64,000 nt of DNA from Larkinella humicola (GTDB lineage Bacteria; Bacteroidota; Bacteroidia; Cytophagales; Spirosomataceae). The stretch lies in NCBI RefSeq assembly GCF_008727875.1, contig NZ_VTWS01000001.1, positions 1,798,001-1,862,000 on the forward strand, read 5' to 3'. Each line of letters begins with the position of its first letter. Position 1 is the stretch's first letter. Shown here one piece after another: positions 14,028 to 28,080 of the stretch. The position numbers and the translations under genes are program-made. The notes beneath the pieces were generated by a model, which saw only the letters and a program-made list of their open reading frames with translations, searched no databases and had not been told where the DNA came from.

Positions 14028-17000
14028 TTGCATTTCTTTAGATCGTTCCCTGTCCGACTTACCTTCTTTTGGCTCAGCCTGCTGCCGACATCCGGTTGGC
14101 TGTGGGCGCAGCCTTTTCGCCTTCCTCAACCCGGCCTCATTACGGACCGGCAGGGATTACCGCAGGCCTTTGTGCCATCGATTGTTCAGGATCGTCAGGG
14201 CTTTATCTGGGCCGCCACCCGCGATGGACTCTGCCGCTACGATGGCCAGCGATTCAAGGTCTTTCAACCCGACCCCGACGGGCGGCCCTCCCTTTCCTTT
14301 GTCGGGCTGGATCAAATCGAACTGGACCGGCACGGACGCATCTGGGTTGTTTCCGAGCGCAAGGATATCGATATCTTCGACCCACGCACCGAAACCTTTA
14401 CCAATTTTTCAAGGCAACCCGCTTTTCGCCGATTGGTCAAACCCGGTATGGGATTTACGTTATTCATTGACCAAAAGGATCGACTCTGGCTAAGGAATGG
14501 GCAGGGCGTCATTTGCTGGGACGTTGCCAGGAAACAGGGCCACTGGTTTCGTCACCAGCCCCTGCAGGCCGCATCGATCAGCAGCGATGCCGTGTATGAC
14601 GTGTCGGAAGGAGCGGATGGAACCATCTGGCTGGCTACAGCAAACGGTTTGGATCGCTTCGAGGAAGGCACGCTTGGTTTTACGCACCTGCGGCACCAGC
14701 CGGGTAATCCCCAGTCGATGCCTGAGAATGGGTATGCTGCCGTACGTTGCCGGCCAAAAACCGGAGAGCTTGTGCTCTTCTCCCAGCACTACCTTACCCT
14801 GCGACAACCCCGTACGGGCCAGATGCGTTCCTACCGGTTGCCGGTTCAGGGAACCGAGCTACATGTTGTGCACGTCGCCATCAACCAGGAAGGAACGGTT
14901 TATTTCCAACAGAATAACATTTTATTTCGGTTTACGGACCAGCAGGGCGTCCAGGTCATAACCCGCTGGGAACAGCCCAACGATGCGTGTCGCGCATTGA
15001 TCATCGATCGAACCAATGTGTTATGGGTGGGCACCGTTGGCGCAGGTATCCGTACCTACGATCTACAGCCCAACCCCTTTCAGAAACGGCCCTACCGCCA
15101 GAGTTTTTATCAGGATCTGCTTACCAACGACTCACTGGGACTGCCCCCGGTTTCCCCAGCGGCTCTAGCCACCTTGAACGGTTTGAGCAGCTATAATTTT
15201 CGATCGACCTTCGATCGGTTGGGACGCTTCTGGTTTAATGTCGGTACTTCGGACCTCTACCGGCTGGATCGGAAAACAGGCCGGACGGAGCATTTTCCGC
15301 TGCCGATTTCCTTTCGCTGGGAAACACCGGTTTCTATTCCCTGTCCGATGACGACTGATTCACAGGGTCGCGTTTGGGCGATCAACGGCTCCTCCGCTTT
15401 CTGGTTTGATGAGAGCAGGGAGCAATGGACCCGGTTCCAATACCCGATCGCGGTTCAGCTTGACAACAGAATTACCGAAGTAGTGGCCGATGAGCAGGCC
15501 CTTTGGCTGGCCAGTCAGACCAATGGGTTATATCAGGTTGACCGCCGGACAGGTCAAATCCGGCAGTTTGTCAACCGCCCTGGCGATGCAAGCTCGTTAA
15601 GCAGCAATTCGCTCTACTGCCTGTCGTCCGATCCAGACGACCCCAATGTGTTGTGGCTGGGCACCTTTGGCAGTGGATTATGTTCATTTGATAAACGAAC
15701 GGGGCTATTTCGCCGGTTTACCAAGTCCAACGGCCTGCCCAATAATGTGATTTACTCGGCAAAACCGGATCGGTACGGGTATTTATGGATGGGCACTAAT
15801 AAAGGGCTTTGCCGGATGAATCGCCGGACGTTCACGACGCAAACCTTTACGCGGGATGACGGCATCATGGCCGACGAGTTTAACCGGTCGCATTATGTCC
15901 AGTTTCCGGACGGGAAAATCCTGATGGGCGGACTGGAAGGTTTCACCGGTTTTGATCCCCGGCAGATCGGCCAGGATGCCTTTGAACCTGTGGTTGAACT
16001 GACCGAACTGGAAGTCAACAACCAGGTCATCCAGCCGGATAGTCCGGGAGCCTTCGGATCGGCTACCACTTCTTCCAATGATCGATCCATTCTGGGTACG
16101 TTGCCCATTCAGGCCACGAATCAACTTACCCTGGATTATAACCAGAACTACCTGACGGTTCAGTTTGCGGCCCTGCAATTCAATCAGCCGAACAAAAACC
16201 GGTATCGGTACCGGTTGAAAGGGCTGGAACCCAACTGGAAGTTAACAGACCGGCCCGAAGCCATCTATACCAATCTGCCATCGGGTGATTACGTATTGAT
16301 GATTAATGCATCGAACACATCCGGTAGGTGGAGCCATCATGTTCGTGTTCTGGCGATTCGGATCGAACCACCCTTTTGGGCCACCTGGTGGGCTTTTGGT
16401 CTGTATTTTCTGATCGGTTTGGGCGTAGCCTGGGGCTTGCTGCAACTCTACCTGAATCGGCTGCGATTAAATCAGACAATCGAACTCAGGCAGAAAGAAG
16501 CCGACCAGCTTCGGGCGGTGAATGCGATCAAAACCAATTTCTTTACCAACATCACCCACGAGTTTCGGACACCGTTGACACTGATCCTGGGGCCGACCGA
16601 ACAGATGGTGAGTGAGAATCCGGAACCTAAAAACCGCCAACGACTACAAACCATCGGGCAGAATGCCCATCAACTCCTGAGGCTGATCAATCAACTGCTG
16701 GATTTATCGAAGCTGGAAGCCAGCGTTATGCCCGTCCACGAATCCAGGGGAAATCTTACCGAATTCATCCGGCAGTGGTTGCCCCCCTTTAGCGACCAGG
16801 CAGCGGGCCTGGGCCTGAACCTGACGTTTCGTTCGGAGGTCGAGGGCGATTACTGGTTCGATGCCGAAAAACTGGAACGGATCGTCAATAACCTGACGGC
16901 CAATGCGCTGAAATTCACCAAAACCGGTTCGATTAGCGTTTTGTTGGAAACCGCATCCGGTCAGATCAGGCTCACGGTGGCCGACACCGGCATTGGCATT

Positions 17001-18026
17001 CCGGCCGAACATCTCCCTCACATTTTTGACCGCTTCTACCAGATCAATGATTCGGCGGCAACGCCCGGTACAGGGATCGGCCTGGCCCTGGTTCAGGAAT
17101 TGGTTCAGTTGCAGGGTGGTCAGATTTCCGTCGAAAGCCAGCCCAATCAGGGCACTACGTTTACGGTGCTGTTGCCGTATCGACCGGCAGAACCGCCAAC
17201 CGCATCACCGGACAGCACCCTGCCGGAGTCCATCGGGGCCGATGACGGGCGTGCCGACGACACATCCGTCGAACCGCGTGTGTTGATCGTGGAAGACAAT
17301 GAGGAGTTAGCCCGGTTTATTGCCGACAGTTTGCCGGAACACTACCGCATCCGGCGAGCCGTCAACGGCCATGATGGCCTGGAACAGGCACTGGAACACA
17401 TGCCTGACCTCCTTATTTCGGATGTGATGATGCCTGGCATGGACGGTTTTGCCCTGTGTGGTCAGTTGAAGTCTGACCTGCGGACCAGTCACATTCCGGT
17501 CATTCTGCTGACGGCCAAAGCCTCCGTTGAAAACCGGCTGGCTGGTCTGGCGCTGGGAGCCGATGATTACCTGACCAAGCCCTTTCAGGTGTCCGAACTT
17601 CAACTCCGGGTTCGCAACCAACTGGCCAGCAAACAGCGGCAGCGCGAGTGGATACGGAAAAGTTTGAGTGATCCGAACCCGCCCCCCTCCCAACCCGCCG
17701 TCGAATCCGACGATCCTTTTCTGACGCAACTGTATTCCCTTTTGGACGCGAACCTGAGCGATTCCGGTTTTGGCAGTGAGCAGATGATGATGGAACTGGG
17801 CATGAGCCGAACCACCTTGTTTCGGAAAGTCAAAGCCCTGACCGATCTGTCGGCGAATGATCTGCTGCGCAATTACCGGCTCAAACGGGCCGCCGAATTG
17901 TTGCGGTCGGGCCAGAGTGTCAATCAAACGGCCTATCAGGTGGGTTTCGAGAGTCCGGCCTATTTCAGCAAATGCTTCCGGGAGCTTTACCGGGTCACAC
18001 CCCGCGCGTTTGCCGCCCAGTCCTGA
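14028..18026 (+). CDS. Hybrid two-component system sensor/regulator (HTCS)
   Basis: A 1332-residue one-protein two-component system. In order it has a signal peptide (about 1-28), two-component-regulator beta-propeller repeats over roughly 30-690 (periplasmic sensor, motifs such as FIWAATRDGLCRYDG and YLWMGTNKGLCRMN), a Y_Y_Y domain (about 694-780), one membrane helix (about 783-809), a HisKA box with phospho-acceptor His844 (NITHEFRTPLTL), an HATPase domain (DTGIGIPAEHL and GTGIGLALVQEL), a receiver with Asp1132 (LISDVMMPGMDG), and a C-terminal AraC-type helix-turn-helix. The start is TTG 14028; no better start precedes the signal peptide. HTCS proteins usually sense oligosaccharides and control nearby genes. 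Here the adjacent operon encodes a PLP enzyme and a cytochrome c, preceded by a 21-bp-period tandem repeat that could be its operator. Confidence 0.95.
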   Translation: MHFFRSFPVRLTFFWLSLLPTSGWLWAQPFRLPQPGLITDRQGLPQAFVPSIVQDRQGFIWAATRDGLCRYDGQRFKVFQPDPDGRPSLSFVGLDQIELDRHGRIWVVSERKDIDIFDPRTETFTNFSRQPAFRRLVKPGMGFTLFIDQKDRLWLRNGQGVICWDVARKQGHWFRHQPLQAASISSDAVYDVSEGADGTIWLATANGLDRFEEGTLGFTHLRHQPGNPQSMPENGYAAVRCRPKTGELVLFSQHYLTLRQPRTGQMRSYRLPVQGTELHVVHVAINQEGTVYFQQNNILFRFTDQQGVQVITRWEQPNDACRALIIDRTNVLWVGTVGAGIRTYDLQPNPFQKRPYRQSFYQDLLTNDSLGLPPVSPAALATLNGLSSYNFRSTFDRLGRFWFNVGTSDLYRLDRKTGRTEHFPLPISFRWETPVSIPCPMTTDSQGRVWAINGSSAFWFDESREQWTRFQYPIAVQLDNRITEVVADEQALWLASQTNGLYQVDRRTGQIRQFVNRPGDASSLSSNSLYCLSSDPDDPNVLWLGTFGSGLCSFDKRTGLFRRFTKSNGLPNNVIYSAKPDRYGYLWMGTNKGLCRMNRRTFTTQTFTRDDGIMADEFNRSHYVQFPDGKILMGGLEGFTGFDPRQIGQDAFEPVVELTELEVNNQVIQPDSPGAFGSATTSSNDRSILGTLPIQATNQLTLDYNQNYLTVQFAALQFNQPNKNRYRYRLKGLEPNWKLTDRPEAIYTNLPSGDYVLMINASNTSGRWSHHVRVLAIRIEPPFWATWWAFGLYFLIGLGVAWGLLQLYLNRLRLNQTIELRQKEADQLRAVNAIKTNFFTNITHEFRTPLTLILGPTEQMVSENPEPKNRQRLQTIGQNAHQLLRLINQLLDLSKLEASVMPVHESRGNLTEFIRQWLPPFSDQAAGLGLNLTFRSEVEGDYWFDAEKLERIVNNLTANALKFTKTGSISVLLETASGQIRLTVADTGIGIPAEHLPHIFDRFYQINDSAATPGTGIGLALVQELVQLQGGQISVESQPNQGTTFTVLLPYRPAEPPTASPDSTLPESIGADDGRADDTSVEPRVLIVEDNEELARFIADSLPEHYRIRRAVNGHDGLEQALEHMPDLLISDVMMPGMDGFALCGQLKSDLRTSHIPVILLTAKASVENRLAGLALGADDYLTKPFQVSELQLRVRNQLASKQRQREWIRKSLSDPNPPPSQPAVESDDPFLTQLYSLLDANLSDSGFGSEQMMMELGMSRTTLFRKVKALTDLSANDLLRNYRLKRAAELLRSGQSVNQTAYQVGFESPAYFSKCFRELYRVTPRAFAAQS

Positions 18027-18088
18027 GCGAATCATCCTTCCCATCCGGTTTTAGCGGTTTTTAGCCCCTTTTACGGCTTTATCGGCGC

Positions 18089-18127
18089 ATTTGGAACAGG
18101 CGTTATGGTATTTGGAACAGGCGTTAT
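18089..18127. promoter_or_regulatory. Perfect tandem 18-bp repeat, period 21 bp; candidate AraC-type operator
   Basis: ATTTGGAACAGGCGTTAT occurs at 18089-18106 and again, unchanged, at 18110-18127. AraC-family activators bind direct half-sites spaced about two helical turns (21 bp in the araI1-I2 example). The downstream copy ends 22 nt before a TAnnTTTG element, placing it over the -33 region. The nearest AraC domain belongs to the HTCS encoded just upstream. Confidence 0.6.
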
Positions 18128-18149
18128 CGCCCGTTTCTGGTTCATCCTG

Positions 18150-18157
18150 TAGGTTTG
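18150..18157 (+). promoter_or_regulatory. Putative -7 element for the 18190-20597 operon
   Basis: TAGGTTTG matches TAnnTTTG, 32 nt before the ATG at 18190 and 22 nt after the tandem 18-bp repeat. There is no good -33 TTG, as expected for an activator-dependent promoter. Confidence 0.5.
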
Positions 18158-18189
18158 TAACCGACCGTTTACCCTGACCCTCTCCTGCC

Positions 18190-18441
18190 ATGACCCTTTA
18201 TTTTTCCCTTGCGGATTCCGACACGCCCTGTGTTTGCAGTGCAGAATTTGAACCACTTCTGGAACTATTGAATGGCTTTGTCGCCATCGGCAACCAGCTC
18301 TTATCCGCTTACCTGGTGGATGATGATGGCATTCGCATTGACTTACCTCCCGAAGCGTTTGACGGTTTACCCATAACCGGTTGTCTGCAAAATTTATCAA
18401 AGCAGTATCACGACCTGCTCGGTATGAAAAACAGAGCCTGA
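18190..18441 (+). CDS. Small protein of unknown function (83 residues)
   Basis: A short acidic, soluble protein that I do not recognise. It starts MTLYFSLADSDTPCVCS, has two close cysteines (Cys14 and Cys16 in PCVCS), a Leu-rich helix and a further Cys in the LPITGCLQNL segment. The start follows a TAnnTTTG promoter by 32 nt, and the gene ends 47 nt before the cysteine-synthase-like gene on the same strand, so it looks like the first cistron of that operon. The cysteines could bind metal or a thiol, but nothing proves it. Coding status is moderately supported by position and codon use. Confidence 0.55.
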   Translation: MTLYFSLADSDTPCVCSAEFEPLLELLNGFVAIGNQLLSAYLVDDDGIRIDLPPEAFDGLPITGCLQNLSKQYHDLLGMKNRA

Positions 18442-18488: not shown

Positions 18489-19556
18489 ATGGTAGTATCA
18501 ACAGAAACAACCCTGACACCCGCTGTTGAGGAAAAATTTGAACAGCTCTGGAATCTGGTCGGCAACACGCCCATGCTGGAGTTATTCTATACGGATCACG
18601 GAAAGCCCCGTTCGCTCTATGTCAAATGTGAGCATTACAACCTGACCGGCAGCATGAAAGACCGCATGGCGCTTCACATCCTGCACGAGGCCTATCGGGA
18701 AGGAACAATTCGACCGGGCGACCGGATTGTGGAAGCCACCAGTGGCTGCACGGGCATAGCCTTTTCGGCCATAGGCCGGGCACTGGGTCACCCCGTTACC
18801 ATCATCATGCCGGCCGGGGTTAGCCAGGAACGCATCGAGATCATTCGGAGTCTAGGGGCCGACGTCGTGTTGGTTACCAAAGAAGAAGGTGGTTTCATGG
18901 GCGCTCTGCAACGCGGGGAAGAAATGGCCGCCAGCGACCCGCACGTTTTTTTGCCCCACCAGTTCGCCAATCAGTACAACGCCGATGCCCACCGCCTGAC
19001 CACAGGCCGGGAAATCTGGTTGCAGCTGCAAAATGTGGACGTTACCCCCGATGCCTTTGTGGCTGGCGTCGGGACGGGGGGTACGGTTATGGGGGTTGGA
19101 GGTTTTCTTAAATCCCGCAAACCCGGGATTCGTATCCATCCGCTCGAAGCCGCCGAATCACCAACCCTGTCGAGGGGGTATAAAACGGGATCGCACCGGA
19201 TTCAGGGCTTTTTCGATGAGTTCATTCCCGAAATTCTGAAACTGAACGAACTGGATCATGTCGTACAGGCCAGCGATGGCGATTCGATCCTTTTAGCCCA
19301 GAAACTGGCCTTGCAACTGGGGCTGGCAGTGGGTATTTCGTCGGGAGCCAACGTGATCGGTGCCATCGCCTTGCAACGGGAAATGGGTCCCGAAGCCCGC
19401 GTGGTGACGATTCTGTGTGACAGCAATAAAAAATACCTCAGCACGGATCTGGTCCGGCTGGAACCTGTTAAACCGGGCTATGTCGCCCCCGGTATCGAAT
19501 TCACAAATTACCGGTCCATCAGCCGCTTATCGGTCAGCCTGTCCAATGTGCTGTAA
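18489..19556 (+). CDS. PLP-dependent cysteine synthase-like enzyme
   Basis: A 355-residue fold-type II PLP enzyme. The PLP lysine is Lys57 in LTGSMKDRMA; the substrate loop is ATSGCTGIAFSA, which differs from the common TSGNTG by Cys for Asn; the phosphate-binding loop is GVGTGGTVMGVG, and AVGISSGANV is the Ser/Gly motif near the C-terminus. The family includes O-acetylserine sulfhydrylase and the catalytic part of cystathionine beta-synthase; no CBS domains follow. The changed TSGCTG loop suggests a substrate other than O-acetylserine. Downstream lies a membrane-anchored diheme cytochrome c, an unusual partner for amino-acid synthesis. Confidence 0.85.
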   Translation: MVVSTETTLTPAVEEKFEQLWNLVGNTPMLELFYTDHGKPRSLYVKCEHYNLTGSMKDRMALHILHEAYREGTIRPGDRIVEATSGCTGIAFSAIGRALGHPVTIIMPAGVSQERIEIIRSLGADVVLVTKEEGGFMGALQRGEEMAASDPHVFLPHQFANQYNADAHRLTTGREIWLQLQNVDVTPDAFVAGVGTGGTVMGVGGFLKSRKPGIRIHPLEAAESPTLSRGYKTGSHRIQGFFDEFIPEILKLNELDHVVQASDGDSILLAQKLALQLGLAVGISSGANVIGAIALQREMGPEARVVTILCDSNKKYLSTDLVRLEPVKPGYVAPGIEFTNYRSISRLSVSLSNVL

Positions 19557-19592: not shown

Positions 19593-20597
19593 ATGAAAAA
19601 AGTAGTACGCATCCTGGCCATCGTCGTTGGCGTTCTTGTTCTTCTGGTTGTTGGCGGCATCAGTTACGTCAAACTCGCGCTGCCCGATGTAGGCCCGGCC
19701 CCCGAACTAACCGTTCAGATCGATTCCGCCCAGATTGCCCGGGGCAAATACCTGGCCACCCACGTTGCCGTTTGCATCGACTGTCATTCCGAGCGGGACT
19801 GGAAAATCTCCAGCGGCCCGGTCGTGGCTGGTACCGAAGGCAAGGGCGGAGAAGCGTTTACCCGCGAAATGGGCTTTCCGGGACTCTATTATGCCCGGAA
19901 CATCACACCGTCGCATCTCCAGAACTGGACCGACGGTGAGATTTACCGCGCCATTACGGCCGGGGTTTCCAAAGACGGACGCGCCTTGTTTCCGGTAATG
20001 CCGTACGGCAACTTCGGGCAGGCCGATCCGGAAGACATCAAAGCCATCATCGCCTACGTGCGATCGCTCAAACCCATCGAGAATAATGCGATCCCGGAAC
20101 CGGAATCGGACTTCCCGATGAACCTGATCATCAATACCATTCCGACCAAAACGGAAGGCGGCAAACGACCCGACCCCGCCGACTCGGTTGCCTTTGGAAA
20201 GTATCTGGTTACGTTGGCCAGTTGTGGGGACTGCCACACGCCGGTCGATGACAAAGGGCAAAAATTGCCGGGAATGGATTTCGCGGGAGGACGGTCGTTT
20301 CCGATGCCTGCCGGAACGGTTCGGGCCGCGAATCTGACCCCGGATGCCGAAACCGGTATCGGGGCCTGGACAAAACCGGCTTTCATGGCCCGGTTTCAGG
20401 CAGCCGCACAACCCAATTTCAAGCATCCGCTAACACTCGAACATGCCGAATTCAACACCATCATGCCCTGGATCATGTATTCCGGCATGAGTGAACAGGA
20501 TCTGGGCGCGATGTATTCGTATTTGAAAACCGTCCGCCCGGTGAAGAATGCGGTGGTGAAATTTACACCCAAAGGAAATGAAGTCGCGACCCGCTAA
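19593..20597 (+). CDS. Membrane-anchored diheme c-type cytochrome
   Basis: A 334-residue periplasmic electron carrier. An N-terminal helix (about residues 5-28) acts as uncleaved anchor. Two cytochrome c domains follow, each with a CxxCH heme site: Cys61-Cys64-His65 (CIDCH) and Cys211-Cys214-His215 (CGDCH). Likely axial methionines are in the FPVMPYGNF and NTIMPWIMYSGM segments. Such diheme proteins often pass electrons from periplasmic flavoprotein or quinoprotein dehydrogenases to the respiratory chain. It is 36 nt after the PLP enzyme gene and followed by a terminator, so it ends that operon. No dehydrogenase is adjacent, although two GMC flavoproteins occur elsewhere in the window. Confidence 0.92.
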   Translation: MKKVVRILAIVVGVLVLLVVGGISYVKLALPDVGPAPELTVQIDSAQIARGKYLATHVAVCIDCHSERDWKISSGPVVAGTEGKGGEAFTREMGFPGLYYARNITPSHLQNWTDGEIYRAITAGVSKDGRALFPVMPYGNFGQADPEDIKAIIAYVRSLKPIENNAIPEPESDFPMNLIINTIPTKTEGGKRPDPADSVAFGKYLVTLASCGDCHTPVDDKGQKLPGMDFAGGRSFPMPAGTVRAANLTPDAETGIGAWTKPAFMARFQAAAQPNFKHPLTLEHAEFNTIMPWIMYSGMSEQDLGAMYSYLKTVRPVKNAVVKFTPKGNEVATR

Positions 20598-20607
20598 GCG
20601 ACCGAAG

Positions 20608-20625
20608 GCCCGCCCGGCTGCGGGC
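20608..20625 (+). terminator. Terminator after the cytochrome c operon
   Basis: GCCCGC (20608-20613) and GCGGGC (20620-20625) form a 6-bp GC stem with a 6-nt loop, followed by TTATTTTAC. It lies 10 nt after the stop codon. Confidence 0.7.
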
Positions 20626-20687: not shown

Positions 20688-23165
20688 ATGAAACTCATTT
20701 TACGATTCAGACCTGCCATGCGATCCATGGCACAATCCTTCTTTTGCCTGGTCCTTTTGATCGGGTTGCTTCCGATCAAACTAATGGCCCAGTTCTGCGC
20801 CAACGGTGTCACCGTGGCCACGGGTGATTATCTCAACTATGTGGTAGTCGATGCCGCAGGTAACGTGTATATTTCCGATCGGAATGATCACCGAATCCTG
20901 AAATATGCCCCCGGTTCTACGCAAGGAGTCGTTTTCGCGGGTGGCAATGGAGAAGGGGAAGCGCTCAATCAAATGCGTTACCCCCGTGGTATCGCGCTGG
21001 ATGCAAGCGGGAACCTCTACGTCGCGGATCTATTGAGCCAGCGGGTCATCCGGTTTCCGCCCAATTCGACCTCGGAGACGTTGGGGACAGTTGTCGCCGG
21101 GGGCAATGGCTATGGTGATCTACCGAATCAGCTTCATAATCCATGCGATGTAGCCCTGGATGGTACTGGCAATCTGTACGTTGCCAGTACCAATAACAAC
21201 CGGGTTATCATGTTTCCTCCGAATTCTACTTCGGCTACTTCGGGTACGATTGTCGCCGGGGGGAACGGAGAGGGAAACGCACTAAACCAGTTTGTATCCG
21301 AAGGGATCTTTGTCGACACGAACGGAACCCTTTTTGTTGCGGATCCAGACAATTTTCGGGTCTTGAAATTTCCTGCGGGCTCAACCTCGGCAACGCCGGG
21401 CATCATCGTTGCCGGTGGAAACGGGGAAGGAGATAAACCCAACCAAATAGCGGTAGTTGATATCTGGATCGATGAGTCAGGGCGTATGTTCGGGTCTGAG
21501 CCGGGCAAAGACCGGGTGCTGATGTTTCCCCCGAATTCCACCTCATTGACCGCTGGCATCCCGGTGGTGGGTGGCAAAGAAGAGAGTAGTGAGACCAATC
21601 GGCTATACTCTCCCAGAAGTGTCACCATCGATGCGGCAGGAAATCTGTACGTGTGCGACGCAGGCAACGACCGGGTGCGACGCTTTTCGGCCGGAGGAAG
21701 TCCTACTCCGGTGGTCAGCCTGCCTTCTTCAGTTCCCCAGCCCATTTCCCAAAACACGCCTAACATCACGCTGACGGTTTCGGGCTGTGAAGGAGGAACC
21801 GTCAGCTGGACGGTATCCAACGGCTCCAGCGGCAGTGGCGCGACCATTCCTGTATTGACCTCAGACGTCGGGACGCTACTTTACTCCGCGAGTTGCAATG
21901 TGGAAGGACTCTGTACAGCCTCCCCCGGTTCGATTTCGGTTCAGGTTATTGCTTCGTCGACGCCGGTGACCGGTTCCTTCGACGGTTTTCTGTATGGAGC
22001 CGATTGCAGTTCTTTCCGGGGCTGGGCCTGGGATAAGAACAAACCAAATACGGTGGTTTCGGTCGATATTTACGATGGGGCCACCTTGAAAGCCACACTC
22101 GCGGCCAACGAATTTCGGCAGGATCTGAAAGATGCAGGCAAAGGCAACGGGATTCACGCCTTTCGCTGGGCAATTCCGGGGGAGTTGAAAGATGGTGAGG
22201 TGCATTCGCTATCGGCCCGCGTCACGGGTGCTAGTTTTACCCTCAAGAGTGGCCCCAAAACCATCCAGTGTCAGAGCAATACACCACCGGCTAACAGACC
22301 ACCCGTAGCTCCGGCCGTGACGCCCCTGATGGCTCAGCAAGGCGTTGCGTTCAATACGGTTTTACCGGCTTTTACAGATCCCGAAGCCAGCACACTCAAC
22401 TACGGACTGGTAACCCTACCAGCAGGTCTGACGTTTACCAGTGCCACCCGGCAAATTAGCGGCACACCGACCGAGGTAGGCGCCTTCACCCTGACCTACT
22501 CGGCCAGCGATGGCGATCTGAATACCTCAGTAAACCTTCTTCTGACGGTTAACCCCGCTTCGACCACCACGGTGACGGGTAATTTTGAAGGGTTTCTCGA
22601 TAAAGTGGAATGCGGCACGATCCGGGGCTGGGTGTGGGATCGAAACAAGCCTAATTCGCCGGTAACGGTCGAGTTTTACACGGGATCTTCCGTTTGGGGG
22701 AGTACGGTGGCCAACCTTTTCCGACAGGATCTGAAAGATGCCGGAAAAGGAAACGGCGCCCACGCTTATAGCTTTGAAGTGCCTTCCGTCCTGAAGGATG
22801 GGGTGGCCCGTATCATTTCGGCCCGGGTACTGGGCTCCACGTATGACCTGAAATGGTCGGGAAAAACGCTGTTGTGTCCATCACCCGCCCGGCTATCCGC
22901 AGAAACCGTTTCCGGTCTTCAGGTGACGGTGTTGGGCAACCCGGTTTCGGAAACGGCGGAAGTCGAAATCCGGGGCGCGGAAGGCCAATCGCTGCGGTTG
23001 CAACTGGTTGATAGGCGGGGCCTGGTGGTTCGTGAACAACAGGTGGAAAAAGCCCGCACTGTTGAGCGGCAAACGTTGTCGGTGGGAAAAACCGCCCCCG
23101 GTTTGTTGCTGCTGCGGGTTTACAGCCCAACCCAATCCCAAACCCTGAAACTGATCAAGCCGTAA
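20688..23165 (+). CDS. Secreted NHL-repeat protein with duplicated C-terminal domain and sorting signal
   Basis: An 825-residue exported protein. A signal peptide (to about residue 35, ending LMAQ) is followed by about six NHL-type propeller repeats (about 45-340) with the recurring pattern VALDGTGNLYVAS...NNRVIMFPPNS. After Ig-like strands come two copies of a roughly 100-residue domain (about 428-529 and 631-730), each with GW-WD-NKPN and the shared core FRQDLKDAGKGNG; a putative-Ig/cadherin-like domain (about 535-621, ending SGTPTEVGAF) lies between them. The last 85 residues look like a type IX secretion C-terminal sorting domain (LLLRVYSPTQSQTLKLIKP). It is probably a surface adhesin or carbohydrate-binding protein; no enzymatic motif is seen. 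Confidence 0.85.
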   Translation: MKLILRFRPAMRSMAQSFFCLVLLIGLLPIKLMAQFCANGVTVATGDYLNYVVVDAAGNVYISDRNDHRILKYAPGSTQGVVFAGGNGEGEALNQMRYPRGIALDASGNLYVADLLSQRVIRFPPNSTSETLGTVVAGGNGYGDLPNQLHNPCDVALDGTGNLYVASTNNNRVIMFPPNSTSATSGTIVAGGNGEGNALNQFVSEGIFVDTNGTLFVADPDNFRVLKFPAGSTSATPGIIVAGGNGEGDKPNQIAVVDIWIDESGRMFGSEPGKDRVLMFPPNSTSLTAGIPVVGGKEESSETNRLYSPRSVTIDAAGNLYVCDAGNDRVRRFSAGGSPTPVVSLPSSVPQPISQNTPNITLTVSGCEGGTVSWTVSNGSSGSGATIPVLTSDVGTLLYSASCNVEGLCTASPGSISVQVIASSTPVTGSFDGFLYGADCSSFRGWAWDKNKPNTVVSVDIYDGATLKATLAANEFRQDLKDAGKGNGIHAFRWAIPGELKDGEVHSLSARVTGASFTLKSGPKTIQCQSNTPPANRPPVAPAVTPLMAQQGVAFNTVLPAFTDPEASTLNYGLVTLPAGLTFTSATRQISGTPTEVGAFTLTYSASDGDLNTSVNLLLTVNPASTTTVTGNFEGFLDKVECGTIRGWVWDRNKPNSPVTVEFYTGSSVWGSTVANLFRQDLKDAGKGNGAHAYSFEVPSVLKDGVARIISARVLGSTYDLKWSGKTLLCPSPARLSAETVSGLQVTVLGNPVSETAEVEIRGAEGQSLRLQLVDRRGLVVREQQVEKARTVERQTLSVGKTAPGLLLLRVYSPTQSQTLKLIKP

Positions 23166-23332: not shown

Positions 23333-25018
23333 TTAGTAACTGTCGTTCTGCTTCAGATAGCCGGGAAGGTTCGACGCCCCATCGATGGCGGTTTGCGGGA
23401 TCGGAAAAATCCGTTTCATCTTATCGCTGTTGGTCTTTTCCGTCCACTTGTCCTCGTACTTGCCAAACCGGATCATGTCCGTCCGGCGCAGCATTTCCCA
23501 ATAGAATTCGAAACCGCGTTCCCGGTACAACAGATCCAGCGTCATGGAAGTCAGGGCCGGGGGCGGTGTGGTGGCCGTCCGGGCCGCCCGAACGAGGTTG
23601 ACATCGGCCAGCGCACTGGCGGCATCACCGCTCTTGCGAAGTTTGGCTTCCGCCCGCATCATGTACACGTCGGCCAGCCGCAGGATGATGATGTCGGCTT
23701 CGCCGAAATTCCGACCACTGACCGATTTTTTGCTGAACTCGTATTTCTCGACCCTGTAGCCGGTGTTGTAGTTGCTGCCGGCCACGGTGAAGTCGATTTG
23801 CTCCGTGAAATCGACGGCCTGGGTGGGGCGGTTCCGGGTGTCGTGGAAAAGCTTGGCGACCTTGTATTTGCCGTCCGCGCATTTCAAAAACACGCCGTTC
23901 CGCCGAATCAAACCGTACTGTTGCCCGCGCAAAATTCCCCGGTTGATGTTAAAATTCGCTTCTGCTACGCACGAATCGGCCGGGTTGGTATAAATCGACA
24001 GGTTCTGTTTGTAAAACCGCGGATCGACCGACGGGTCATTCGGCGCATAGGCATTCACCCAGGTCCGGTAGTAATCGGGCGTAATGCCCGGTCCGTCGGT
24101 GCCATTGGCGTTGGGATAGGCTGGTAGCGGAAACTGATCGCCCGACAGGGAGAAGTACGCCATGCGGTTATGACCGTTCAGGTCGGCCCGCTGATCGACC
24201 GCAAAAATCAACTCCTTGTTGGTGTTGTTGTCCGAATTGAAAATCGAAAAATAATCCCGCGACAGTTGGTACTGTCCCGAATTGATAATCTTGTCGGTGT
24301 ATTCGACTACCTTATCCATGTCTTCCGGTTTGAAGGTGAACTGAGCTGCATACCGATCCCGGTAGACTGCCGCATTCAGATACAAGCGGGCCAGCAGCCC
24401 CCAAACCGCCCCTTTCGTCAGCCGACCGGGGCCAACGGCCGTCTCCAGATTCGGCTCGACGGCCAGCAGTTCGCTTTTGATGTACTCAACGGCCTGCTCA
24501 CCCCGCAGAATGGTTGAATTTTCGCCCAGATCGTCCTTGACAAACACCAGCCCGAACATGTCCAGCGTCAGCAGCGAATAATACGCCCGCATGCCCCGCG
24601 CTTCGGCCAGGTAGGTCTTGGCAACCGGATCGTTCAGTGTCGGCAACGTATTGATGGCGGTAATGGACCGCGAAACGCCCTGCAAAATCAGGTTCCAGGT
24701 GTTGCGCAGGTTGGGATCGGTGCTGGTGTGCGTGTGCTGGTGCAACGCCAGATAAATGCCGTTATCACCCCAGTCCGTACCGCCCCGATACGGCAGAATG
24801 GCCTCATCCGTCGAAATTTCCTGAAGGGCGAAGTAGTTGGTATGCAGGAAAATATCCGGTAACCGGGCATACACCGGCGCAATGATTCCATCGGCAGCCT
24901 GCCGGTCGGAAAGGCCCGAAGCCGAAGCTTCGTCCAACACATTTTCGGACAGATTCGTACAGCCATTGAGGACATACACACCCGCCAGCATGACGATTAA
25001 TATGAATTTTTTGATCAT
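23333..25018 (-). CDS. SusD/RagB family outer-membrane nutrient-binding lipoprotein
   Basis: A 561-residue surface lipoprotein that caps the SusC-type channel encoded just upstream (11-nt gap). The N-terminus has a lipobox (VYVLNGC), giving an acylated Cys20. The SusD fold shows ISTDEAILPYRGGTDWGD early, tetratricopeptide-like helices (AEARGMRAYYSLLTLDMFG; GLLARLYLNAAVY), and the C-terminal hallmark MRAEAKLR...ALADVNLVRAAR...LLYRERGFEFYWEMLRRTDMIRFG with the typical ERGFEFYWE. The ligand is unknown; no glycosidase or peptidase lies beside the pair. Confidence 0.95.
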   Translation of the reverse strand: MIKKFILIVMLAGVYVLNGCTNLSENVLDEASASGLSDRQAADGIIAPVYARLPDIFLHTNYFALQEISTDEAILPYRGGTDWGDNGIYLALHQHTHTSTDPNLRNTWNLILQGVSRSITAINTLPTLNDPVAKTYLAEARGMRAYYSLLTLDMFGLVFVKDDLGENSTILRGEQAVEYIKSELLAVEPNLETAVGPGRLTKGAVWGLLARLYLNAAVYRDRYAAQFTFKPEDMDKVVEYTDKIINSGQYQLSRDYFSIFNSDNNTNKELIFAVDQRADLNGHNRMAYFSLSGDQFPLPAYPNANGTDGPGITPDYYRTWVNAYAPNDPSVDPRFYKQNLSIYTNPADSCVAEANFNINRGILRGQQYGLIRRNGVFLKCADGKYKVAKLFHDTRNRPTQAVDFTEQIDFTVAGSNYNTGYRVEKYEFSKKSVSGRNFGEADIIILRLADVYMMRAEAKLRKSGDAASALADVNLVRAARTATTPPPALTSMTLDLLYRERGFEFYWEMLRRTDMIRFGKYEDKWTEKTNSDKMKRIFPIPQTAIDGASNLPGYLKQNDSY

Positions 25019-25029
25019 GATTTCAGAGA

Positions 25030-28000
25030 TTAAAAAGTAAGATTCAGGCCCAAAACGAACGTTTTGGCTTTCGGGTAGCTGAGGTAGTCGATGCCGTAGG
25101 AGGAAATCCCGTTGACCGTCCGGTCCGTATTCACCTCGGGGTCATACCCGTCGTACTTGGTAATCACAAACAGATTCTGGCCCGTGGCCGACAAGCGGAT
25201 GCCGGAAACCCAGCGGTTGATGCCGAGCAGCTTGGGGCTGAGGTTGTAGCCCAGCGACAAGTTGTTGAGCCGCAAATACGACCCGTTTTTCAGGTAGCGC
25301 GACGAAACCGGTGCCGAGTTGTTGATCGACTCGTTGGCGTACTGAATGGCTTCGGGCGTGGTGTTCAGCCCCTTGGACAACCGCAGTTTGTAGAAATTGG
25401 AGTTGGCGGTATTGTCGTACAGTTTGTTTCCCGAAACGCCGTTGAAATTCACCGCCAGATCGAAGCCTTTGTAGGCCACCGTGCTGTTGAAGTTGAACTG
25501 CTTCGTGGGCAGGGCGCTTCCCACGGCCACCCGGTCTTTGTCCGTCACGATGCCGTCGCCGTCCACATCGCGGAAGGTACTGATGCCTTTGTCGTCAAAA
25601 CCGGTAAATTCCTTGAGGAAAAAAGTGCCGATGGGCTGGCCATTCACGTAGCCGTTGATGGTGGCCGACGTCAGACCGGAACCGGAAGCTGACCCGGACG
25701 GAATGACGGTATAGGGCGAGTTTTTCACCTCGTTGTCGATGAACGTTACGTTCCCGCCGATGTCGAACCGGAAACCGTTCAGGTTAGCATAGCGGTAATT
25801 CAGATCCAGTTCGACGCCCTGGTTGGTAATGGTCATGTCCGGCACATTGGTCCAGAATGTTCCTGCCGGTTGAACGGGGTCAGCCGGGATCACTTCCAGC
25901 AGAATGTTGTTGGAGACTTTCCGGAAATAATCGACCGAACCCGACAACGCGCCTTTGAACAAGGCGAAATCCAGTCCGATGTCGGTTTGGGAAGACACCT
26001 CCCACTGAATGTCCGGGTTGGCCAGCCGCGAATACGATGTTCCGGCGGGATATGGCCCCGTGGGAGCCAGCGGATAACTCGTCGTGGCCGATACCTGCGA
26101 GGTAAACAGTGCCTGCGTGATTTTCGACGGGATTTCCTGGTTACCGGTTTGTCCCCAGCCCGCCCGCAGTTTCAGATCAGAGAATGGGCCCGATTTCAGG
26201 AACGCTTCTTCCGACAACCGCCAGCCCACCGAGAACGACGGAAAAATACCGTATTTGTTGTTGGACCCGAACTTGGATGAGCCATCGGCCCGCACTGTGG
26301 CCGTCATCAGGTATTTGTCGTTGTACTGGTAATTGACGCGGGAGAAGAACGATTGAAGTTCATTTTCCAGGGCGTATCCGCCGGGGCGGTTATTCGCCAG
26401 TGTCAGATCCTGTCCCAAACCAGGGTTGTAGATCGGCTCGATGGGCGAAATCGGAAATTTGTTGATGCTTGAGCTGCGTTCCTGCACGAAAATTTTCTGG
26501 TAGGAATGCCCCAGCAAGGCCGTCAGGTTGTGCTTCGTAGTCGATAACGCATACGTGAAGTAATTCTCGATCAACACGTTGCGGTTGGTTTTGTAAATGG
26601 TTTCCAGCCGACCGTCCTGCAAGGGAACCGCGTTGGGCAACGACTGCAAATCCCGCACCGAACTGGAGTTGTCAACGCCCAGGTTGAGTTTGTACACCAG
26701 ATCTTTCGTGATTTTGAACGAGGGCGAGATATTCCCGATTACCCGGTTGATGGTGGTTACGTCCTTTTCCAGTTTCAGCGGAATCAGCGGGTTCACCCCA
26801 CTCTGGTATTTGAAGGGTTCGCCGTTGGCGTCGTAAGCCGGCAGCGTCGGATTGGCAGAAATCGCCCCGCCCAGCAGGCTCTCGACCGGCGGACGGCGGC
26901 TGTAGGTACTGGTCGCGTTCAAGTTGACGTCCACATTCAGGCGGTCTTCCATGAATTTCTGCGACACGTTGATCCGTCCCGTATACCGCTTGAATTCGCT
27001 GTTTTTCAGAATGCCATCCTGGTCCTGAATCCCGAACGAACCGTAATAGGTCAGCTTTTCGGCACCACCGCCAAACGACACATTGTGGTTTTGGGTGTAG
27101 GCGGTCTGCGTAATTTCCTTCTGCCAGTCGGTGGACGCTTTGAAATCTTCCAGCACCCCGCCTACGGCCGGAACCTGCCGCCGGTATTCATCGGCCGAAT
27201 ATACCGGCAACGCCCGCGTCAGGTTGGAGATCCCCAGACTGGACGATACATTGAAGGTCGAAAAACCGGATTTGCCTTTCTTGGTCGTGATCAACACCAC
27301 GCCGTTGGCTCCCCGCGAACCATAAATAGCAGTAGCCGAAGCATCTTTCAACACGTCGATCGACTCGATGTCCTGCGGGTTCAGAAAATTCAGCGGGTTG
27401 GAGGTTCCACCCGTACTGGAGTTGTCGAGCGCAATACCGTCCAGTACAAAAAGGGGCGTACTGCCCGTCCGAACCCCACCCGGCCCCCGGATCGTGATAT
27501 TCTGAGCACCACCCGGTTCACCACTGGCGGAGGTTACATTGACCCCGGCCACTTTGCCTTGCAAAAGCTGCTCCGGTGAGTTGATGATCCCTTTGTTAAA
27601 ATCGGCACTTTTGATCGACTTCACCGAACCGGTCATGTCTTTCTTGGCCGCACTCCCGTAGCCGATCACTACCACCTGCGACAGTTCTGATGCGGATGCT
27701 TTGAGGGACACATTGATCATGCTTTGGTTGCCGACCGCTATTTCCTGCGAAACAAAACCGATGAAACCAAACACCAGGACGGCATTGCCTTCCGGCACGG
27801 CAATCCGGTAATCACCGTTGGCATCCGTGGTGGTTCCCCGCTGGGTTCCTTTCAGCACGACGCTGCAACCCGCCAGGGCCTCGTTCGTTGTGGCATCCGT
27901 CACCCGCCCGCTGATGGTGACATCGGCGCCTGGTCGTTCACTTGGAGAGATGGCCGTTTTAGCCGTTGCCAGAGCCTGACTTTTCCCTTCGACCGCCAGT

Positions 28001-28080
28001 AGCGTTAGGGCGAGCAGGATACAGCAAAGCCTCCTCCAGTGCATCGTAAAGGGAGGAGAAAAAGAGTAGAAAATCATCAT
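25030..28080 (-). CDS. SusC/RagA family TonB-linked outer-membrane receptor
   Basis: A 1016-residue TonB-dependent importer. A signal peptide precedes a CarboxypepD_reg-like domain (ISGRVTDATTNEALAGCSVV, then GDYRIAVPEG), followed by the SusC signature VVVIGYGSAAKKDMTGSV, a plug domain with LQGKVAGVNVTSASGEPGG and VLKDASATAIYGSRGANGV, and a C-terminal 22-strand-type barrel ending in FVLGLNLTF. No N-terminal STN domain is present, so it is not of the FecIR-controlled type. The start is given as the first ATG; a second in-frame ATG at 28044 (MHWRRLCC) would give a better signal peptide. It works with the SusD protein encoded 11 nt downstream; substrate unknown. Confidence 0.95.
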   Translation of the reverse strand: MMIFYSFSPPFTMHWRRLCCILLALTLLAVEGKSQALATAKTAISPSERPGADVTISGRVTDATTNEALAGCSVVLKGTQRGTTTDANGDYRIAVPEGNAVLVFGFIGFVSQEIAVGNQSMINVSLKASASELSQVVVIGYGSAAKKDMTGSVKSIKSADFNKGIINSPEQLLQGKVAGVNVTSASGEPGGAQNITIRGPGGVRTGSTPLFVLDGIALDNSSTGGTSNPLNFLNPQDIESIDVLKDASATAIYGSRGANGVVLITTKKGKSGFSTFNVSSSLGISNLTRALPVYSADEYRRQVPAVGGVLEDFKASTDWQKEITQTAYTQNHNVSFGGGAEKLTYYGSFGIQDQDGILKNSEFKRYTGRINVSQKFMEDRLNVDVNLNATSTYSRRPPVESLLGGAISANPTLPAYDANGEPFKYQSGVNPLIPLKLEKDVTTINRVIGNISPSFKITKDLVYKLNLGVDNSSSVRDLQSLPNAVPLQDGRLETIYKTNRNVLIENYFTYALSTTKHNLTALLGHSYQKIFVQERSSSINKFPISPIEPIYNPGLGQDLTLANNRPGGYALENELQSFFSRVNYQYNDKYLMTATVRADGSSKFGSNNKYGIFPSFSVGWRLSEEAFLKSGPFSDLKLRAGWGQTGNQEIPSKITQALFTSQVSATTSYPLAPTGPYPAGTSYSRLANPDIQWEVSSQTDIGLDFALFKGALSGSVDYFRKVSNNILLEVIPADPVQPAGTFWTNVPDMTITNQGVELDLNYRYANLNGFRFDIGGNVTFIDNEVKNSPYTVIPSGSASGSGLTSATINGYVNGQPIGTFFLKEFTGFDDKGISTFRDVDGDGIVTDKDRVAVGSALPTKQFNFNSTVAYKGFDLAVNFNGVSGNKLYDNTANSNFYKLRLSKGLNTTPEAIQYANESINNSAPVSSRYLKNGSYLRLNNLSLGYNLSPKLLGINRWVSGIRLSATGQNLFVITKYDGYDPEVNTDRTVNGISSYGIDYLSYPKAKTFVLGLNLTF

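Follow-up and report, generated by a model that had tools for sequence, protein, structure and literature searches.

A conserved tandem repeat with a 21-bp period beside a Larkinella HTCS gene as the probable operator of a dispersed set of genes

Results

Gene arrangement around the tandem repeat

The 64-kb stretch of Larkinella DNA analysed here (the window) contains an HTCS gene, followed by a short tandem repeat, a -7 element and three genes that presumably form an operon (Table 1). Domain searches of the HTCS product revealed Reg_prop, Y_Y_Y, HisKA, HATPase_c, Response_reg and HTH_18, in this order, bearing out the first-pass annotation of the upstream gene as an HTCS with an AraC domain; the nearest solved sequence is a hybrid two-component protein (PDB 12aw). 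The earlier description of the genes between 18190 and 20597 also holds. The 83-aa protein had no match in Pfam or NCBIfam, and a search at E ≤ 0.001 detected its unnamed family in 36 of 200 genomes of the bacterial family, with at most 13 matches per genome. Terminator-like stem-loops numbered six in the region versus 3.4 in shuffles. The next gene (20688–23165) encodes a protein with NHL repeats whose match to a T9SS sorting domain falls below the cut-off. The SusD and TonB-receptor genes of the window (23333–28080) are encoded on the other strand (−), and the search detected no operator pair in their vicinity; for these two reasons they were left out as targets.

Table 1. Coordinates of the features at the locus (positions in the window)
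Feature	Position	Strand	Remark
HTCS gene (propeller sensor, HisKA, HATPase, receiver, AraC-type HTH_18)	14028..18026	+	start codon uncertain
AraC-type DNA-binding domain of the HTCS	17703..18023	+	presumed reader of the half-sites
Distal half-site ATTTGGAACAGGCGTTAT	18089..18106	+	drift among Larkinella species: 0, 1, 1, 3, 5 differences
Proximal half-site ATTTGGAACAGGCGTTAT	18110..18127	+	period 21; unchanged in 5/5 Larkinella copies before the 83-aa gene
TAGGTTTG, -7 element of the Bacteroidota TAnnTTTG type	18150..18157	+	22 nt past the second copy
83-aa protein	18190..18441	+	presumed first gene of the operon; paralogues in several genomes
PLP-dependent enzyme, cysteine-synthase type (PALP)	18489..19556	+	best NCBIfam match cysKM, below cut-off
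Cytochrome c protein	19593..20597	+	presumed third gene of the operon
Terminator-like stem-loop with T-rich tail, 3' of these genes	20612..20625	+	consensus match only

The repeat begins 62 bp after the end of the HTCS gene and consists of two 18-mers separated by the 3-bp spacer GGT, so that the copies start 21 bp apart. The two copies are unchanged and the -7 element follows the second one at the distance that had been claimed, and this 22-nt gap sets the near copy against the -33 region, where the first-pass annotation had placed it. The pair was the sole exact direct repeat of at least 14 bp with a period of 12–60 in the window; an exact 18-bp direct repeat with a period of 19–60 is expected about 3e-5 times per 64 kb. 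No further match to the 18-mer with up to three mismatches was present elsewhere in the window, and none of 100 shuffles contained two or more matches. In the whole 7.86-Mb genome these two were the only exact copies, and matches with two or three mismatches numbered eight, versus five for a reversed-pattern control. The surrounding 18027–18189 contained no inverted repeat or palindrome, and inspection by eye revealed no consensus -33 box before TAGGTTTG. The 121-bp promoter stretch had no match in a collection consisting of plasmids only, and a mobile or plasmid origin of the repeat was rejected on that basis.

Conservation of the site in Larkinella

A close relative of the 83-aa gene (61–100% identity over all 83 residues) was found in four other Larkinella genomes: Larkinella sp. 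C7 (G108), L. rosea (G082), L. knui (G058) and L. terrae (G071). Retention of the repeat in front of this gene in relatives had been proposed as a check, and all four genomes retain it. In each of them the proximal 18-mer is identical to that of the window, and the 3-bp spacer and the 22-nt distance to TAGGTTTG are also kept. The distal 18-mer differs at one position in L. terrae, one in L. rosea, three in Larkinella sp. C7 and five in L. knui. The alignment of the five genomes consequently shows the proximal half-site and the -7 box as solid blocks amid more variable DNA. None of the remoter 83-aa relatives (loci L014–L019 and L025) has a pair directly upstream; the Fibrisoma 83-aa gene comes second among the ORFs that follow a pair.

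The letter-perfect identity of the copies in the window genome is what a recent, functionless 21-bp tandem duplication produced by slippage would leave behind. However, a near copy that is invariant in five genomes beside a far copy that drifts is the pattern expected of a binding site, not of a slippage repeat. Moreover, all three genera Larkinella, Fibrisoma and Spirosoma have the paired layout, its halves diverged and its period still at 21, and the same pair precedes unrelated genes at unlinked loci. Slippage, to which we assign almost no probability, is refuted by the retained position, period and promoter phasing, and the repeat is better read as a regulatory site.

Period and promoter phasing of the half-sites

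When the core TGGAACANNNNTTAT was searched with a free spacer of 0–30 bp, all 11 exact pairs had a 6-nt gap, corresponding to a period of 21; they were located in four of the nine genomes of the genus, and the reversed-pattern control gave none. With the spacer fixed and up to three mismatches allowed, 24 pairs were detected in eight of the nine genomes, again with none in the control. A weight matrix built from these fixed-spacer matches yielded 44 pairs in the fetched loci, all with period 21 although periods of 18–33 were allowed; since a period-21 pattern had served to fetch many of these loci, the free-spacer search is the less biased test of the period.

The phasing relative to the promoter was counted in 39 stronger pairs, after five of the 44 had been dropped for a half-site score not above 11. 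TAnnTTTG lay exactly 22 (n = 16) or 23 (n = 14) nt past the proximal half-site in 30 of the 39, GAnnTTTG at 23 nt in four, and neither form of -7 box was recognisable in the remaining five; the two halves of a pair agreed on average at 14.5 of 18 positions versus 13.3 after reshuffling, a value that none of 5000 reshuffles reached, and both the phasing and the similarity counts include orthologous sites and are thus not independent. Sorting by eye of the 27 single half-site matches in the genus assigned 20 to a 21-bp pair and six to the inside of predicted ORFs, and the last one was intergenic with a weak partner only. Lone half-sites were rejected as operators on these counts.

Link between the pair and the HTCS lineage

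Among the 200 family genomes, 16 carried the pair (≤2 mismatches; 39 sites, versus 2 in the reversed control), 14 carried the HTCS domain (E ≤ 1e-39, a threshold set with domain-search results already in view), and 13 carried both. The co-occurrence gave a Fisher probability of 8.7e-17 over the 200 genomes and of 1.3e-4 within one genus (g5; 34 genomes by a manual count, six with the pair, six with the HTCS, five with both); because genomes and sites are related by descent, these p-values are inflated and overstate independence. Thirty-six of the 39 sites are located in HTCS-bearing genomes. On closer look, the single HTCS-bearing genome without a pattern match (G157) also has a pair, about 42 bp past the HTCS gene, so that the site accompanies the orthologous HTCS in 13 of 14 genomes by pattern and stands beside the HTCS gene in the fourteenth. 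Three genomes (G016, G068 and G159) had one pair-like match each and no HTCS domain at 1e-39; the best domain match in G016 reached 3e-38.

The domain search scored 24 candidates per genome and yielded at least 21 HTCS genes, with further paralogues possible. In 14 of the 21, the pair lies 32–100 bp past the first base of the stop codon; three have a weaker variant pair there, and four have no pair within 400 bp. Same-oriented repeats about 21 bp apart thus adjoin genes for an HTCS with an AraC-type domain, and such pairs were also found in L. arboricola (G043), L. punicea (G091), Fibrisoma montanum (G018) and Spirosoma despite other downstream genes. The pair of genome G184 lies 5' of the HTCS gene and is divergent to it, and that of Spirosoma sp. 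48-14 (G163) is on another contig than the HTCS gene.

Half-site sequence and type of HTCS domain

Comparison of half-sites with the DNA-binding domains revealed that HTCS domains with an LSAND segment accompany GGAACA half-sites and those with LTAH accompany GGAYCA. In the 14 of 21 HTCS genes that entered this count (G135C10 of S. validum, G135, included), base 8 of the proximal half-site is A in all six SAND-type sites and C or T in all eight TAH-type sites, and base 8 of the distal half-site is A in five of six versus none of eight. An LTAID domain with GGCCGA is represented by a single gene, G120C78 of S. profusum (G120). The same species has three pairs in which both halves read TGAAYCA, and one of these adjoins the HTCS gene on C50.

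In a tree of 19 C-terminal fragments the three classes require three changes (minimum 2; shuffled mean 7.4), several forks being weakly supported, so that independent switches are few. G135C10 and G135C22b were omitted from the tree because of their short reading frames, and G082C12 and the genes of G163 and G184 were left unlabelled, as no site lies within 400 bp of their 3' ends; pairs lie about 470 and 740 bp beyond G082C12. L. knui has a TGGAYCA pair (C9), yet only a SAND-type HTCS was found there at E ≤ 1e-30. The half-site thus varies with the DNA-binding domain of the HTCS, through few independent changes and with L. knui as an exception, and on these two grounds a strict code between domain and base is not established.

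Analysis of 15 HTCS paralogues with 50–65% domain identity revealed that in eight the best direct repeat just downstream has a period of 21–22, and seven lack such a repeat. Six of the eight repeats are of clearly different sequence; the other two (L116 and L121, 64–65% identity) have half-sites partly similar to those of the pair, so specificity is not fully separate. The 55 HTCS loci comprised 36 with distinct repeat units, and among the 20 scoring at least 10, 14 had a period of 21 and one a period of 22, versus 0.2 repeats of any period in letter shuffles. Eight of the 14 period-21 loci are near relatives of the window HTCS (72–93%) and six are remoter.

Other HTCS genes also have repeats of their own. 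A stretch of 16–17 bp of TTGGCACAGGATTAACA is repeated at a 22-bp period immediately downstream of a further HTCS gene in three genomes (Larkinella paralogues L117, L119 and L127); it is an operator candidate of a second HTCS. Period-21 direct repeats of different sequence lie just after HTCS genes at L113, L123, L126, L198 and L210, among them a 10-bp repeat in an Acidobacteriota MAG contig.

These comparisons bear on the identity of the protein that reads the pair: instead of the adjoining HTCS it might be a different regulator found in the same genomes, either a paralogous HTCS or a free-standing protein of the AraC type. The genomes of the genus offer many candidates (47–76 per genome in a first-look domain search), and both the three genomes with a pair-like match and no such HTCS at the cut and the half-sites of L116 and L121 fit such a regulator. 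Against it stand the position of the pair directly after 14 of the 21 HTCS genes of the group, the variation of the half-site core together with the HTCS's own domain, the clearly different repeats of six of the 15 paralogues, and the lack of a clear repeat in seven. We regard another regulator as very unlikely and the adjoining HTCS as the probable reader.

Unlinked loci and likely targets

The pair is retained where the genes of the presumed operon are dispersed. In L. terrae, the 83-aa/PALP operon lies at C6:1787k and the closest HTCS gene (80%) at C1:830k, where it stands before a cytochrome c gene, and there is a pair at both loci; a 65% HTCS paralogue is also present, 1.78 Mb from the operon on the same contig. 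L. rosea has one pair at a full-length PALP gene (C11:1007k) and another at a cytochrome c gene (C11:1390k). In the window genome, the gene after the second pair (C15:516480) encodes a large protein that gave propeller and Ig-type matches. The separate loci of these three genomes indicate that the pair marks unlinked units. As to the PALP genes of L. rosea, the ORF adjoining the HTCS gene comprises only 122 aa (L067, 6591–6959), and a full-length relative of 355 aa that has a separate operator pair is found elsewhere (L062, 7338–8405).

The first ORFs downstream of 35 of the 44 pairs fell into few groups: large secreted proteins (15), cytochrome c (5), PALP (4), 83-aa-like proteins (3), beta-lactamase-fold lipoproteins (3), Tat-type lipoproteins (3) and propeller lipoproteins (2); the other nine were mixed, cut or absent. 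In three of the four PALP cases (the window, L066 and L068) the 83-aa gene is actually first and was missed by the ORF caller. Pfam analysis of 63 first and second downstream ORFs of at least 80 aa gave He_PIG (11), PALP (8), Cytochrom_C (8) and Beta-lactamase (7), and no SusD, TonB-receptor or glycoside hydrolase family occurred among the best 25 of 101 Pfam families. Control of a susC/susD polysaccharide locus was accordingly not found; such linkage was the selection criterion of the study in PMC3878776 and does not define the type of operator. Second genes after pairs encode, among others, CarboxypepD_reg domains (L131) and an M23 peptidase (L169), and a weaker pair precedes a STAND/WD40 protein (L135).

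Lipoproteins of unrelated families at these loci share a DH motif 2–7 residues past the presumed lipidated cysteine (L129, L130, L131, L167, L169 and L180, which follow operator pairs; also L069, L136 and L168). With lipoproteins called by a home-made signal rule, the motif was present in all seven that have the operator directly upstream versus 7 of 39 others (Fisher 6e-5, relatives included), and these seven others are all encoded in loci that also hold a pair. The motif is possibly a sorting tag.

Discussion

Comparison among genomes shows a conserved site with fixed period and promoter phasing that is tied to one HTCS lineage and is kept where the operon is unlinked from the HTCS gene. The first-pass annotation had inferred that the pair is the operator of the upstream HTCS, and the conservation, the co-occurrence with the HTCS and the match between half-site and domain all lend support to that reading. 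Counting against it are the pair-like matches in G016, G068 and G159, the unlinked pair of G163, the four HTCS genes that lack a pair within 400 bp, the TGGAYCA pair of L. knui, the five pairs with no recognisable -7 box, the partly similar half-sites of L116 and L121, and the 65% paralogue on the contig of the L. terrae operon. The pair at 18089–18127 is very probably the two-half-site operator of the HTCS encoded directly upstream, and in related bacteria it apparently labels genes that are controlled together. In Larkinella these putative targets would comprise the 83-aa, PALP and cytochrome c genes together with large secreted proteins, and in Spirosoma, Fibrisoma and several Larkinella species they would include lipoproteins.

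We infer from the arrangement how the site may work. The AraC-type domains of two HTCS molecules would each occupy one 18-bp half-site, both oriented alike and on one face of the DNA, two helical turns apart, with the near half-site ending 22 nt before TAGGTTTG, about where a -33 element would lie. Since no consensus -33 element was recognised, the activated HTCS would be expected to recruit RNA polymerase to the TAnnTTTG promoter.

A known parallel is the araI1–araI2 site of AraC, in which same-oriented half-sites lie 21 bp apart and the near one adjoins the upstream element of the promoter. Orientation, 21-bp spacing and the promoter-proximal near site are shared with the pair described here. 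AraC is a free arabinose-binding activator acting at a sigma70 promoter, whereas here the domain forms part of a sensor-kinase protein and the -7 box of the promoter is of the TAnnTTTG type. Placing tandem AraC-type half-sites beside the -35/-33 region is typical of activators, which argues against the alternative that the HTCS blocks the promoter at the pair, as a repressor or at a dual site. That alternative draws on the near half-site abutting the expected -33 region, and the sequence alone gives no sign of regulation. Set against it, too, are the HTCS-bearing loci of B. thetaiotaomicron, which are described as activated or induced by their polysaccharide (PMC3878776). Repression is unlikely on balance, and activation by the HTCS is the reading that we prefer. 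The Bacteroidota housekeeping promoter has the same TAnnTTTG -7 octamer (PMC9723704); in contrast to that promoter, no -33 consensus was recognised by eye here, and the near half-site lies about in its place.

The architecture as such is already known, since a direct-repeat layout of about 21 bp for HTCS sites was predicted for Bacteroides in 2013 (Ravcheev et al. 2013, PMC3878776). HTCS regulators are numerous in Bacteroidota, with 36 in B. thetaiotaomicron, and that study gives predicted motifs for 16 of these 36, being direct repeats with an average of 21 bp between the tandem sites. HTCS_Hep, HTCS_Man and HTCS_Rgu likewise combine a C-terminal AraC-type domain with a two-site direct repeat; the example sites measure 12, 14 or 16 bp, in contrast to the 18-bp unit with a 3-bp spacer here (PMC3878776). 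The motif groups of B. thetaiotaomicron follow the HTCS tree and the regulons include distant operons, and sites at adjacent and distant operons, as well as related domains with related motifs, are common to both systems (PMC3878776).

The contents of the regulons differ. Those of B. thetaiotaomicron were chosen for susC/susD linkage and cover polysaccharide use (PMC3878776), whereas the likely targets here are a cysteine-synthase-like enzyme, cytochrome c, the 83-aa protein, large secreted proteins and lipoproteins, and the hosts are Larkinella, Fibrisoma and Spirosoma instead of Bacteroides. The regulon of this HTCS is unusual, since SusD was not seen among the likely targets (best 25 of 101 Pfam families). 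Searches of open-licence papers showed no description of this Larkinella/Spirosoma HTCS regulon, and what was found on HTCS binding sites concerns mostly gut Bacteroides and polysaccharide use.

A broader reading, which we put forward tentatively and hold to be somewhat less probable than its opposite, is that this HTCS lineage has left the role in polysaccharide utilisation and runs a dispersed redox, PLP-enzyme and cell-surface regulon. Operators and DNA-binding domain would then record a specificity switch (LSAND with GGAACA, LTAH with GGAYCA, LTAID with GGCCGA), and the DH motif of the lipoproteins might serve in their sorting.

The value of the locus lies in a clear operator candidate with exact promoter phasing and in a multi-locus regulon without an obvious polysaccharide locus. 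The natural variants, in which protein and DNA apparently change together, provide a test case for site selection by HTCS proteins; if the specificity switch is true, residues of the HTCS could be matched to bases of the operator.
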